64,000 bases of DNA, from the NCBI RefSeq assembly GCF_007991635.1, contig NZ_BJYS01000020.1:1-64000 (forward strand). Reading direction: 5' to 3'. Under the pieces are notes generated by a model. The model had not been told where the DNA came from. It did not search any database and saw only the letters and a program-made list of their open reading frames with translations. The position numbers and the translations under genes are program-made. Shown here piece after piece: positions 45,650 through 49,184 of this stretch (its first letter is position 1; each line of letters starts with the position of its first letter). The DNA comes from Adhaeribacter aerolatus (GTDB lineage Bacteria; Bacteroidota; Bacteroidia; Cytophagales; Hymenobacteraceae).

Positions 45650-46984
45650 ATGGAAAAGAAACTTCTACCCACTAACGCCCCTGATTTTAAAACCGGGCAC
45701 CTGCATGTAATTACCCTTGTGCTTTACTTACTGGGCATGCTGAGCCTGTCCTCCTGCACCGACGAATGTGAAACCACCGTTACCTATACCACCCAGGAGC
45801 CTGTTTTATTAAAACGGAGCGATTTGGTAGCAGCCGTCAAATCGGAGCCGGGGAAGGCTTTGGCCACTACCGGAAAAATTTACGCGAAAGACCAGTACGT
45901 TTTTGTAAATGAGTTATACAAAGGCATTCACGTAATAAATAACAGCAACCCGGCCGCTCCTAAAAATATTGCTTTCATTAATATTCCGGGCAACGTAGAT
46001 ATGGCCATCCGGGATAATATTTTGTACGCCGATGCGGGACCTGATTTATTAGCACTGGATATTTCGGACCCAGCCCGGGTAACCGTAAAAAATCATACGC
46101 TCAACCTGTTCCCGACTTTTACCTTTACCGGCACAGCTGGTAACCCGCAGGCCTCCGATTTGCTAACAGTTGGCTACACTACCCGCATTGTTACCGAAAG
46201 CCGTCCGGCAGATTGTGGCAGTTCGGGCTCCGGCGGGTTCATCGACTTTGTACAAAACGATACCAGAAATTTTGCTAGTGCGGCCAGTCTTAATAAAAGC
46301 GCCGGCTCTACCGGCACAGGTGGCTCCATGGCGCGTTTTACCATTACCGGCGATTATTTATACGCGGTAAACACCTCCAGCATACAGGTAGTAAATATTA
46401 CCCAGCCGGCCAGTCCGGTGCGCGGCAGCAATATTCCTACCAGTTGGAATACCGAAACCATTTTCCCTTACCAGGATAAGTTATTTCTGGGCACCAGCTC
46501 CGGCATGCTCATTTACGACAACAGCCAACCCCAGCAACCCAAATTTATTTCGGCTATCAGTCATTTCTTTGGGTGCGACCCGGTGGTAGTAGATGGCAAT
46601 TTTGCCTATGTAACCGTCCGGAACGGTACCGAATGCCGCACGGGCAACAACATTAACCAACTGGAAGTAATCGATATTTCTACTATTCAGAACCCCAGAA
46701 GAATTAAAACTTATACCATGCAAAATCCACACGGCTTAGGCATTGATAGAGAGACTTTGTTTTTGTGCGAAGGCGATTACGGTTTAAAGGTTTTTGATGC
46801 GCAAAATGTGCTTACCATCGATCAGCATAAGTTAGCCCACTTTAAAGATATTCATGCTTTTGATGTAATTCCGTTAGGAAATACTTTACTGGCGGTTGGC
46901 AACGACGGCTTATACCAGTACGACTATTCCGACCCGAAAAACATGAAGTTCCTGAGCAAAATACCGGTTACGAAAGCCCAGTAA
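45650..46984 (+). CDS. LVIVD-repeat lipoprotein (beta-propeller type)
   Basis: A 444-residue lipoprotein, lipobox LSSC with Cys36. The mature part is a beta-propeller built of LVIVD-type repeats: ELYKGIHVINNSNPAAPKNIAFINIPG, NILYADAGPDLLALDISDPARVTVK, DYLYAVNTSSIQVVNITQPASPVRG, NFAYVTVRNG, NTLLAVGNDGLYQYDYSDPKNMKFLSKIPV. Such repeats are typical of Bacteroidota surface lipoproteins of unknown function. Full-length. Starts at ATG 45650, and a gene for a beta-barrel-like protein follows after 41 bases. Confidence 0.85.
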   Translation: MEKKLLPTNAPDFKTGHLHVITLVLYLLGMLSLSSCTDECETTVTYTTQEPVLLKRSDLVAAVKSEPGKALATTGKIYAKDQYVFVNELYKGIHVINNSNPAAPKNIAFINIPGNVDMAIRDNILYADAGPDLLALDISDPARVTVKNHTLNLFPTFTFTGTAGNPQASDLLTVGYTTRIVTESRPADCGSSGSGGFIDFVQNDTRNFASAASLNKSAGSTGTGGSMARFTITGDYLYAVNTSSIQVVNITQPASPVRGSNIPTSWNTETIFPYQDKLFLGTSSGMLIYDNSQPQQPKFISAISHFFGCDPVVVDGNFAYVTVRNGTECRTGNNINQLEVIDISTIQNPRRIKTYTMQNPHGLGIDRETLFLCEGDYGLKVFDAQNVLTIDQHKLAHFKDIHAFDVIPLGNTLLAVGNDGLYQYDYSDPKNMKFLSKIPVTKAQ

Positions 46985-47025
46985 TATTAGTGCGTAAATC
47001 CACTCCATAGCTTAAATTTTTTTTG

Positions 47026-47775
47026 ATGCCGCTTATCCGTTCCTTTTTTTTACCTGTTTTCCTGTTTTTGTTTTTACCTGCATCTTTGCTGGCCCAGAAA
47101 AGGGGCTGGCAGGATGTAGTGTATTTAAAAAATGGCAGCATTATCCGGGGGCATTTGCAGGAAGACTCCTCGCCGGCAATAATCCGGATAGAAACAGTAG
47201 GCCAGAATTTATTTGTTTTTAAACCGGAAGAAGTGGAGCGGGTAGCCAAGGAATATACCAGAACTGATTTTAAATACCCTTATACGCAGGGCTACCAGAA
47301 TATAACGGAGGCTGGTATGAGTGTGGGTTACCGGCCAACCGTAAACGCATTTTCTGACCCTGGCCGCAGCGTAAACTTTACTTTACAAACCTTTAACGGT
47401 TATCAGTTTTTACCGGCCCTGGCGGTGGGCCTGACTACCGCTATTGATACCTACGGCAGTATTACTTTATTGCCAGTCGCGTTGGGCATCCGCGGTGATA
47501 TTACCAAAACCAAGGTGCGCCCTTATTATGGTTTCGATGCCGGCTACGCCCTGGATTGGCTTAGTAACCCCAATTTAGCAGCCAACCAGGATGGTGGTTT
47601 TGTATGGAGCCCTACCTTCGGCTTAAAATTTAATTCTCATAAGACCCACGCCTTTATTTTAAACCTGGGCTACCGCAACCAGCGAGCCACCGCCGAAACC
47701 CGCCAAGGCAATATGCTCACCACGCAACGCAATCATTTTCAGCGCATTCTGTTCCGGATGGGCATTAGTTTTTAG
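47026..47775 (+). CDS. Outer-membrane beta-barrel-like protein
   Basis: About 249 residues from ATG 47026 (the preceding codon, TTG at 47023, is also in frame). Signal peptide about 1-22 (...FLFLPASLLAQ). An N-terminal stretch GWQDVVYLKNGSIIRGHLQEDSSPAIIRIETVGQNLFVFKPEEVERVAKEY (about 25-75) reads like a small repeat domain, then beta-barrel-like strands (VNFTLQTFNGYQFLPALAVGLTTAIDTYGSITLLPVALGIRGDITKTKVRPYYGFDAGYALDW, FSPTFGLKFNSHKTHAFILNLGYRNQRA). Likely in the outer membrane. Starts 41 bases after the LVIVD lipoprotein gene, so operon-like. Function unknown. Confidence 0.75.
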   Translation: MPLIRSFFLPVFLFLFLPASLLAQKRGWQDVVYLKNGSIIRGHLQEDSSPAIIRIETVGQNLFVFKPEEVERVAKEYTRTDFKYPYTQGYQNITEAGMSVGYRPTVNAFSDPGRSVNFTLQTFNGYQFLPALAVGLTTAIDTYGSITLLPVALGIRGDITKTKVRPYYGFDAGYALDWLSNPNLAANQDGGFVWSPTFGLKFNSHKTHAFILNLGYRNQRATAETRQGNMLTTQRNHFQRILFRMGISF

Positions 47776-47824
47776 TCCCGGCGAATAGGGATTGAAAAAA
47801 TATTTTATGATTTTTACAACGAAT

Positions 47825-47856
47825 TTGCAACTTTATTGAAAATATCCGTATATTTG
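47825..47856 (+). promoter_or_regulatory. Strong Bacteroidota-type promoter for the candidate ncRNA
   Basis: A -33 TTG (47825-47827), a 21-base spacer, then a -7 TATATTTG (47849-47856) that fits TAnnTTTG exactly. It lies about 50 bases after the stop of the beta-barrel-like gene and points into a stretch with no coding frame, giving a start near 47862. Confidence 0.7.
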
Positions 47857-47861
47857 TATCG

Positions 47862-48142
47862 AATCAGTTGATAATCTCTATTGCCTCAGCAATATTATTA
47901 AACGATTCGCGTTAGGAGTTTGGTTACTGAAATGGGATGATGCAGAAAGTGCGCATCTTGTAAACCGACCGGATAGAAAAAGGTTATAAGAAATAAATGC
48001 TGGTTTAGCGTTCGGCGCCTGAAAATGCCAACCAACCAGCAATATATAAAGAGCTCCTGATTAAGTTTGGGTGATTTTAATTATTTGTGGTGGATAATTA
48101 AAAACTTAGAAAACAGCTTGCCTTAGGCAAGCTGTTTTTTTT
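47862..48142 (+). ncRNA. Candidate structured non-coding RNA (about 200-280 nt), possibly 6S-like
   Basis: No coding frame exists here, but a near-consensus promoter lies in front and a T-run terminator ends it. Visible pairings: a closing stem AATCAG (47862-47867) with CTGATT (48057-48062); TATTGC (47879-47884) with GCAATA either locally (47889-47894) or at 48039-48044, two exclusive states; TTGGTTAC (47920-47927) with GTAAACCGA (47960-47968, one bulged A), enclosing GATG (47936-47939)/CATC (47954-47957); and TGCTGGTT (47998-48005) with AACCAGCA (48034-48041). It does not fit tmRNA, SRP RNA or RNase P RNA motifs I know. 6S-like is a guess based on size and the long closing stem only. It may use the terminator at 48111-48142, or end earlier. 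Confidence 0.6.
48111..48142 (+). terminator. Strong Rho-independent terminator, overlapping the rlmN 3' end
   Basis: AAACAGCTTGCC and GGCAAGCTGTTT form a 12-bp perfect stem with a TTA loop, followed by a T-run (eight T in total). The loop is the complement of the rlmN stop codon (TAA on the minus strand), so one hairpin ends both transcripts that converge here. Confidence 0.9.
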
Positions 48143-49184
48143 CTTTCGTAGCTAACTGTCCGCAAGCGGCATCAATATCCTTACCGCGGCTCCGCCGCAC
48201 ATTTACCTGCACCCCTCTGTCGGCGAGGTAATACACAAACTTAGATAAGTGGTCTTCATCGGTATTCCGGAAAAGCGCGGCAGCTATCGGGTTATACTCA
48301 ATCAGGTTTACCTTACACGGAATCAGCTTCGTAAATCTTAACAGTTCTTCGGCATCCTGCAGGGTATCATTAAAGTTTTCGAACACAATGTACTCGTAAG
48401 TAACCTTGCGCCCGGTAACCTCGTGGTAATATTTTAAAGCTTCGGTTAATGTTTCCTGCGAGTTGGTTTCGTTAATCGGCATTATTTCGTTCCGCTTGGT
48501 ATCGTTAGCGGCGTGCAACGACAACGCCAGATTGGCTTTAACGCCATCATCAGCCAATTTTTTAATCATTTTGGCAATGCCGGCGGTACTAATGGTAATG
48601 CGCCGGGCGGCCATATTCAGGCCGTCGGGGGCGGTAATGCGCTCTACGCTTTTTACCACGTTGGCATAATTCAGCAGCGGCTCGCCCATACCCATATACA
48701 CAATATTGGTCAGCGGCGTACCGTACTGGGCCATACACTGCTCGTTTATCAGCACCACCTGGTCGTATATTTCGGCGGCATCGAGGTTACGTTTGCGCTC
48801 CATGTAACCGGTAGCGCAAAACTTACAGGTAAGCGAGCAACCCACCTGGCTCGACACACAGGCCGTCATCCGTTCTTCGTGCGGAATTAAAACTCCTTCT
48901 ACAATATTGCCGTCATACAACCGGAAAGCCGATTTAATGGTGCCGTCTTTGCTGATTTGCTGGTTGGCAACTGTTACCAGATTAATAGCAAAATGCGCGT
49001 GCAGCTTTTCGCGCAGCGGCAACGAAACGTTGTTCATTTCAGCAAAAGACTTAGCCGCATGTTTCCAAAGCCACTCGTACACCTGTTTGGCCCGGAAAGG
49101 CTTCTCGCCGTTTTCTACAAACCAGTTCTTCAGTTCGTCGAACGAAAGCTTTCTTATATCTTTTTTAATCTCTGTCGCAATCAT
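48123..49184 (-). CDS. rlmN: Dual-specificity RNA methyltransferase RlmN (23S rRNA A2503 C2-methyltransferase)
   Basis: A radical-SAM enzyme that methylates C2 of A2503 in 23S rRNA (and often A37 of tRNAs). About 353 residues from ATG 49184 (MIATEIKKDIRK); the 40-residue longer reading lacks the conserved start. The CxxxCxxC iron-sulfur motif is Cys116-Cys120-Cys123 in GCSLTCKFCATGYM, with further family motifs MGMGEPLLNYANV and ISTAGIA. A TACCTTTG box lies only five bases before the ATG, so the transcript would be almost leaderless. Length is normal. Confidence 0.95.
   Translation of the reverse strand: MIATEIKKDIRKLSFDELKNWFVENGEKPFRAKQVYEWLWKHAAKSFAEMNNVSLPLREKLHAHFAINLVTVANQQISKDGTIKSAFRLYDGNIVEGVLIPHEERMTACVSSQVGCSLTCKFCATGYMERKRNLDAAEIYDQVVLINEQCMAQYGTPLTNIVYMGMGEPLLNYANVVKSVERITAPDGLNMAARRITISTAGIAKMIKKLADDGVKANLALSLHAANDTKRNEIMPINETNSQETLTEALKYYHEVTGRKVTYEYIVFENFNDTLQDAEELLRFTKLIPCKVNLIEYNPIAAALFRNTDEDHLSKFVYYLADRGVQVNVRRSRGKDIDAACGQLATKEKKQLA

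Follow-up and report, generated by a model that had tools for sequence, protein, structure and literature searches.

In the stretch of Adhaeribacter aerolatus DNA analysed here (the window, 64,000 nucleotides), the interval between a gene for a barrel-like protein and the convergent gene rlmN raises the question of whether it is transcribed into an RNA of its own and, if so, what such an RNA would do. A sequence-only reading had claimed an undescribed structured RNA at this place, with a near-consensus promoter, a terminator built on a 12-bp stem and no coding frame, and these three elements withstood re-examination. TTTG at 47824-47827 is followed after 21 nt by TATATTTG at 47849-47856, an arrangement (TTTG-N21-TATATTTG) which we take to be the Bacteroidota promoter form, and the RNA start is predicted at about 47861-47863. 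The terminator stem (AAAACAGCTTGCC/GGCAAGCTGTTTT, 48110-48138) proved to be a perfect 13 bp followed by a T-run, and no plus-strand ORF of at least 40 aa was found between promoter and terminator (Table 1). No tRNA or tmRNA was found in the window. As the earlier reading had suggested, we also searched the window against Rfam: no family reached its gathering score, neither 6S nor any other model matches, and under permissive settings the four matches with E < 1 all overlap the terminator while the other 12 have E > 1, none of them being credible. None of the titles found by searching the open-licence literature for sRNAs of Adhaeribacter, Hymenobacter, Cytophagales, Flavobacterium and Bacteroides describes this RNA. 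Judged by its sequence, the interval combines a promoter and terminator of its own with the lack of a conserved reading frame, as the sRNA class demands, and the prediction of an undescribed RNA gene with these signals is well supported by its conservation among relatives. The terminator's loop, TTA (48123-48125), doubles as the stop codon of the minus-strand gene rlmN, so that the last codons of rlmN belong to the terminator stem.

Table 1. Features of the predicted sRNA gene and its neighbours (positions in the window).
Feature	Position	Strand	Basis and remarks
Barrel-like protein gene (label from the sequence-only reading)	47023..47775	+	Upstream neighbour, not part of the RNA
Promoter TTTG-N21-TATATTTG	47824..47856	+	Sequence; kept in G001 and G007, in G004 with spacer changes
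Variable 5' part of the RNA	47862..47997	+	Neither conserved fold nor frame seen; length and sequence diverge among four congeners
Penultimate hairpin TGCTGGTT/AACCAGCA	47998..48041	+	Folds of four 3' parts; counterparts in relatives use other letters
3' targeting module: small hairpin CCTGA/TTGGG plus seed hairpin	48049..48108	+	Near-invariant in G000, G001 and G007; recognisable in G004
Seed hairpin, stem TTTTAATTAT/ATAATTAAAA	48075..48104	+	Predicted folds
Seed UUUGUGGUGGAU	48084..48095	+	From pattern searches and an analysis of positions; mRNA leaders carry the complementary ATCCACCACAAA
Intrinsic terminator	48109..48142	+	Sequence; compensatory T-A to C-G change in G004
rlmN, convergent neighbour	48123..49184	-	Present in 8 of 8 Adhaeribacter genomes

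We compared the locus across eight Adhaeribacter genomes (Cytophagales, Hymenobacteraceae): that of the window (G000), A. rhizoryzae DK36 (G001), A. aquaticus DSM 16391 (G004), the 78% complete MAG Adhaeribacter sp. RYN_302 (G007), and G002, G003, G005 and G006. A DNA search of 59 genomes recovered the region at full length in G001, with 83% identity, and split into two pieces in both G007 and G004, together with short fragments. Common to these four genomes are the promoter and a 3' module that hardly varies, made up of the small hairpin, the AU seed hairpin and the terminator (in G000, AAGAGCTCCTGATTAAGTTTGGGTGATTTTAATTATTTGTGGTGGATAATTAAA and then the terminator). What had been called a structured RNA stands as a predicted RNA gene conserved in four of eight congeneric genomes, but its folded 5' part changes freely while the 3' module stays, with predicted RNA lengths of ~280 nt in G000, ~280 in G001, ~400 in G007 and ~200 in G004. 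As judged from three to four sequences, three hairpins preserve their pairing with changed letters: the terminator, the small hairpin and the penultimate hairpin, in which the counterparts of TGCTGGTT/AACCAGCA are GGCTGCC/GGCAGCC in G007 and TTCTGGT/ACCGGAA in G004. In predicted folds, the loop core GUGGU is mostly unpaired in G000, G001 and G004 and mostly paired in the full-length fold of G007. Searching 200 genomes of the family for the module returned the same four, plus G163, where the match has three mismatches and lies inside a long ORF. The exact seed hairpin is present in 31 stretches of the GTDB collection (a search from which the window's own genome is possibly absent), three of which are this RNA (L081, L094 and L102, all Adhaeribacter), the other 28, read by eye, being without the module's surroundings.

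The sequence-only reading had missed the seed loop UUUGUGGUGGAU and the presence of its complement before many genes. In the 59-genome search, four short seed-hairpin fragments match elsewhere in G000 and G001, and in all four cases an ATG follows closely and the mRNA strand carries the loop complement. We searched for such tags with the seed complement, TATCCACCACAAATAATT, allowing up to three mismatches and using the reversed pattern as control. Matches against control numbered 38 vs 16 in G000 and 41 vs 16 in G001, and in genomes without the module 32 vs 16 (G005), 20 vs 7 (G006), 18 vs 5 (G003) and 15 vs 13 (G002); the totals do not discriminate, and only leader position does. A site was classified as a leader if it lies outside ORFs of 90 codons and an ATG 0-35 nt downstream opens a frame of at least 90 codons or one that runs off the stretch. 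Start-codon-overlapping sites at L063 (GH88-like), L037 (RbsB-like, TTG start) and possibly L019 were not counted, nor were sites overlapped by another ORF of at least 90 codons (L032, L114, L186, L339). Among the 204 matches of the eight genomes (the RNA's own site included for G000, G001 and G007), sites numbered 38, 41, 17, 23, 32, 15, 20 and 18 in G000, G001, G007, G004, G005, G002, G006 and G003, of which, in the same order, 7, 13, 1, 1, 1, 1, 0 and 0 are same-strand leaders and 1, 1, 0, 1, 0, 0, 0 and 0 antisense leaders. With own sites left out, same-strand leaders account for 7 of 37 sites in G000 and 13 of 40 in G001, so that these two module genomes have 20/77 against 2/85 in G002, G003, G005 and G006 (Fisher p = 1.1e-5). 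Among non-own matches with at most two mismatches, leaders make up 7 of 9 in G001 and 2 of 5 in G000. The conserved seed is complementary to several mRNAs encoded elsewhere, a defining trait of the sRNA class. One further tag, present in both genomes (L019 in G000, L192 in G001), overlaps a possible ATG of a signal-peptide-like frame and falls outside the leader rule.

We consider it likely that the gene product is a trans-acting sRNA, pairing with translation-initiation regions and probably repressing sugar-catabolism and uptake genes as a group. What the sequences show is a conserved module, tags complementary to it that have a preferred position and orientation, and a scarcity of tags at this position where congeners have no module. 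That the RNA is transcribed, that it pairs with mRNAs in the cell, that it represses rather than activates and that it answers to a carbon-source signal is what we infer. The interval 47862-48140 would encode an sRNA of ~280 nt, in whose 3' module a weak AU hairpin, immediately ahead of the terminator, would expose the seed in and around its loop. This seed would pair with AUCCACCACAAA(UAAUU) tags up to ~35 nt upstream of, or overlapping, start codons, the weak stem of the seed hairpin could open to give a longer duplex, and pairing would probably block ribosome entry and repress the tagged genes jointly, in the manner of a Spot 42- or FopS-like brake on alternative carbon sources. The FopS family of Bacteroides thetaiotaomicron (14 members of ~65-70 nt, seed in the 5' region) pairs with the translation-initiation regions of mainly susC-type and also glycoside hydrolase mRNAs and represses them (PMC11697453), and GibS, an intergenic Bacteroides RNA with an extended seed, is described as binding around the start codons of metabolic mRNAs and repressing them (PMC7366714); its seeds, R1 and R2, lie in a 5' part without structure, and two of its targets have been shown to be direct. 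We favour repression because both of these RNAs repress by binding translation-initiation regions. A different outcome of pairing with the same leaders, namely activation or stabilisation of the mRNAs or an effect chiefly on their decay, strikes us as unlikely: the sites lie up to 35 nt ahead of the ATG or overlap it, so that the opening of an inhibitory fold is conceivable, but they surround the translation-initiation region, where GibS and FopS repress in Bacteroides.

Orientation also bears on the question. Leaders in G000 and G001 together are 20 sense vs 2 antisense (p = 1.2e-4), or 15 vs 2 when genes common to the two genomes are counted once (p = 0.002), and G002, G003, G005 and G006 together contain 0 antisense leaders. 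It is conceivable in principle that CCACCACAAATAATT in leaders is a regulator's DNA site or a translation element, its complement in the RNA being coincidence or a further copy, and the motif does outnumber its reversed control where no module is present as well; but the one-sidedness of the leader copies, the confinement of their excess to genomes with the module, and the position of the complement around the predicted loop of a conserved module in the RNA make this very improbable.

Taken whole, the region is more stably folded than its shuffles (z = -5.1), whereas the 5' 189 nt (47862-48050) taken alone reach z = -1.37, with 18 of 200 shuffles equally good, and the seed module alone z = -0.93. 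Because the 5' part and the seed module fold roughly like shuffles, the excess appears to come mainly from the terminator, and the folded 5' part is not the element that counts. TATTGC (47879) and GCAATA at 47889 and 48039, the proposed arms of a two-fold switch, are present, but their pairing is broken in G001; likewise the TGCTGGTT/AACCAGCA hairpin named as competitor of the switch exists, but the switch is not conserved. Covariation of the stems across relatives, the check put forward with these claims, gave a divided answer, the closing stem and TATTGC/GCAATA being lost while the TGCTGGTT/AACCAGCA hairpin and the terminator keep pairing. A 6S-like or two-state structured RNA can be dismissed with near certainty, since its likeness to 6S RNA, the long closing stem TTAGGAG/CTCCTGA of one single-sequence fold, is broken in G001 (83% identical over the region), and neither a conserved switch, a covariance-model match in Rfam nor a 5' part that folds unlike shuffles accompanies it.

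G007 and G004 carry the module but show the leader pattern weakly. The seed of G007 is identical, yet strict leaders account for 1 of 16 non-own sites in this 78% complete MAG; the original pattern gives one leader and one antisense leader among the 23 sites of G004. The seed loop of G004 is one base shorter, and a G004-type pattern finds 32 sites there including the own one, seven of the 31 non-own sites being same-strand leaders and none antisense. As this pattern also finds leaders at 3 of 9 loci examined in G000 (21 matches) and 4 of 8 in G001 (30 matches), we do not claim covariation of the G004 seed and tags.

Target families were assigned with Pfam and NCBIfam across the scanned leaders, and many of the tagged genes look like genes of sugar catabolism or uptake. 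Strict leaders precede TonB/SusC-type receptors (L016 and, in G007, L123), tagaturonate reductase (uxaB, L024), Gfo/Idh/MocA oxidoreductases (L028, L177), an SDR (L040), a TIM-barrel isomerase-like protein (L076), a GH95 (L113) and a DUF4440 protein (L190). Matches under the cut-off were obtained for L-rhamnose isomerase-like L039, for L116 (an enolase-superfamily protein, nearest galactonate dehydratases), for EboA-like L201 and, weakly, for heparinase II/III-like L017; L178 gave a weak Tat signal alone and L191 no family. The leaders of G004 belong to an outer-membrane receptor (L335), a ThuA/DUF7133 protein (L343), an MFS protein nearest galactonate transporters (L375), and four genes (L361, L363, L364, L368) with no family in the 127-129 available residues. 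Outside the strict count lie tags of an RbsB-like protein (L037), a sugar-type ABC permease (L326), a GH88-like protein under the cut-off (L063), two Gfo/Idh/MocA proteins (L339, L344), a TIM barrel (L353), a ThuA/DUF7133 protein (L328), a DUF7133 protein (L032), and L186, L330 and L334, for which no family was found. L116 (G001) and L368 (G004) begin alike, as do L328 (G001) and L114 (G007), suggesting that some targets are common to several species. The susC-type leader L055 of G001 has tandem tags, TATCCACCACAAATAATT and ATCCACCC, before one gene.

Between G000 and G001, tags are kept and flanks diverge in the susC-type pair L016/L055, in uxaB (L024/L119), in L028/L110 and in L032/L179; the pairs L017/L069, L174/L076 and L037/L188 are less telling because the nearby leader is conserved too. 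We rejected uxaB as a deeply conserved target, as a tag within 120 nt before the start is found in just two of the nine uxaB genes of the genus (G000 and G001 only), the G007 leader being without one although the module is present. An orthologue comparison for L028 was uninformative: the family is large, and outside G000 and G001 it offers no clear orthologue. Of 27 leaders given, two had starts that were not found; the duplexes predicted for the other 25 have energies between -15 and -44 kcal/mol, and for 20 of these no more than 2 of 100 shuffled leaders do equally well, a test that is not independent because the leaders were chosen by motif. For L174, L186 and L114, 3-7 of 100 shuffles equal the duplex energy, and for L203 and L204, where the site lies inside the first codons, more than 70 do.

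Spot 42 of enterobacteria is one Hfq-dependent sRNA acting on many alternative-sugar catabolic genes. The RNA proposed in Adhaeribacter would likewise be a single sRNA for many alternative-sugar genes, but no Hfq was found in G000, and Hfq was rejected as a partner on this ground; the two sequences were compared through Rfam alone. Bacteroides, the host genus of GibS, is likewise described as having no obvious Hfq (PMC7366714), and the FopS/GibS family is bound by the RRM-1 protein RbpB. The mode of action would resemble that of FopS and GibS, a likeness by description that does not imply kinship. With FopS the Adhaeribacter gene shares a Bacteroidota-type promoter and, as putative targets, susC-type and glycosidase genes, pairing and repression being proposed here from sequence; it differs in having one gene per genome (a single hairpin match in G000 at up to three mismatches), ~280 nt long with the seed in a 3' hairpin, against 14 short copies, and so is not a multicopy family of short RNAs. 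With GibS it has in common an intergenic location, an extended seed and predicted sites around start codons of metabolic genes, and differs from its unstructured 5' seeds, two direct targets and genus. The R1 seed of the FopS/GibS family lies in the 5' region and the seed found in Adhaeribacter at the 3' end, a comparison of positions rather than of letters.

The trans-acting Bacteroidota sRNAs found in the open-licence literature are all from Bacteroides. Here a candidate regulon can be read from sequence in a Cytophagales genus, in a genome without detectable Hfq, with long complementary tags preceding uronate, rhamnose-, ribose- and galactonate-type genes, TonB/SusC-type transporters and glycosidases, so that RNA control of carbon use becomes directly testable in Adhaeribacter.

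In the four congeners G002, G003, G005 and G006, no barrel-like gene shows up within the 1300 bases preceding rlmN, and a shorter gene-like stretch (L272-L275) lies beside rlmN, following a gene that resembles the 444-aa ORF at 45650-46984 of the window. It has a promoter-like TATATTTG, TATCTTTG, TACATTTG or TACCTTTG, an invariant 25-nt TTTGCTTTACTTGTTCACTGTTCAA, and a hairpin with a T-run, and is probably another sRNA. ATTGAAAA upstream in G003 and G006 resembles the G000 sequence, and G003 has ATTGAAAA..TATATTTG at the same place. The complement of TTTGCTTTACTTGTTCACTGTTCAA, at up to three mismatches, gave 8 matches vs 10 for the reversed pattern in G005, 14 vs 6 in G002, 15 vs 7 in G003 and 31 vs 8 in G006; besides the own gene, no match in these four genomes has fewer than three mismatches. 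Among 30 loci examined of 97 genus-wide, one is a leader (L299, G003) and none antisense, and for this reason we see no comparable regulon for the TTTGCTTTACTTGTTCACTGTTCAA module. We advance as a tentative possibility, with the balance somewhat against it, that an ancestral rlmN-side sRNA locus exchanged targeting modules, the UUUGUGGUGGAU sugar regulon with its leader tags against the unrelated TTTGCTTTACTTGTTCACTGTTCAA that follows a similar promoter and has a terminator of its own, and that the regulon switched within the genus; the two rlmN-side genes would then be orthologues with exchanged modules. The gene-like element of the four congeners offers a natural case for studying the rewiring of an sRNA regulon. 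Nineteen of the 31 G006 matches to the TTTGCTTTACTTGTTCACTGTTCAA complement are exact copies of one dispersed repeat, GAACAACGAACAACTAAA, of which G002 has one copy.
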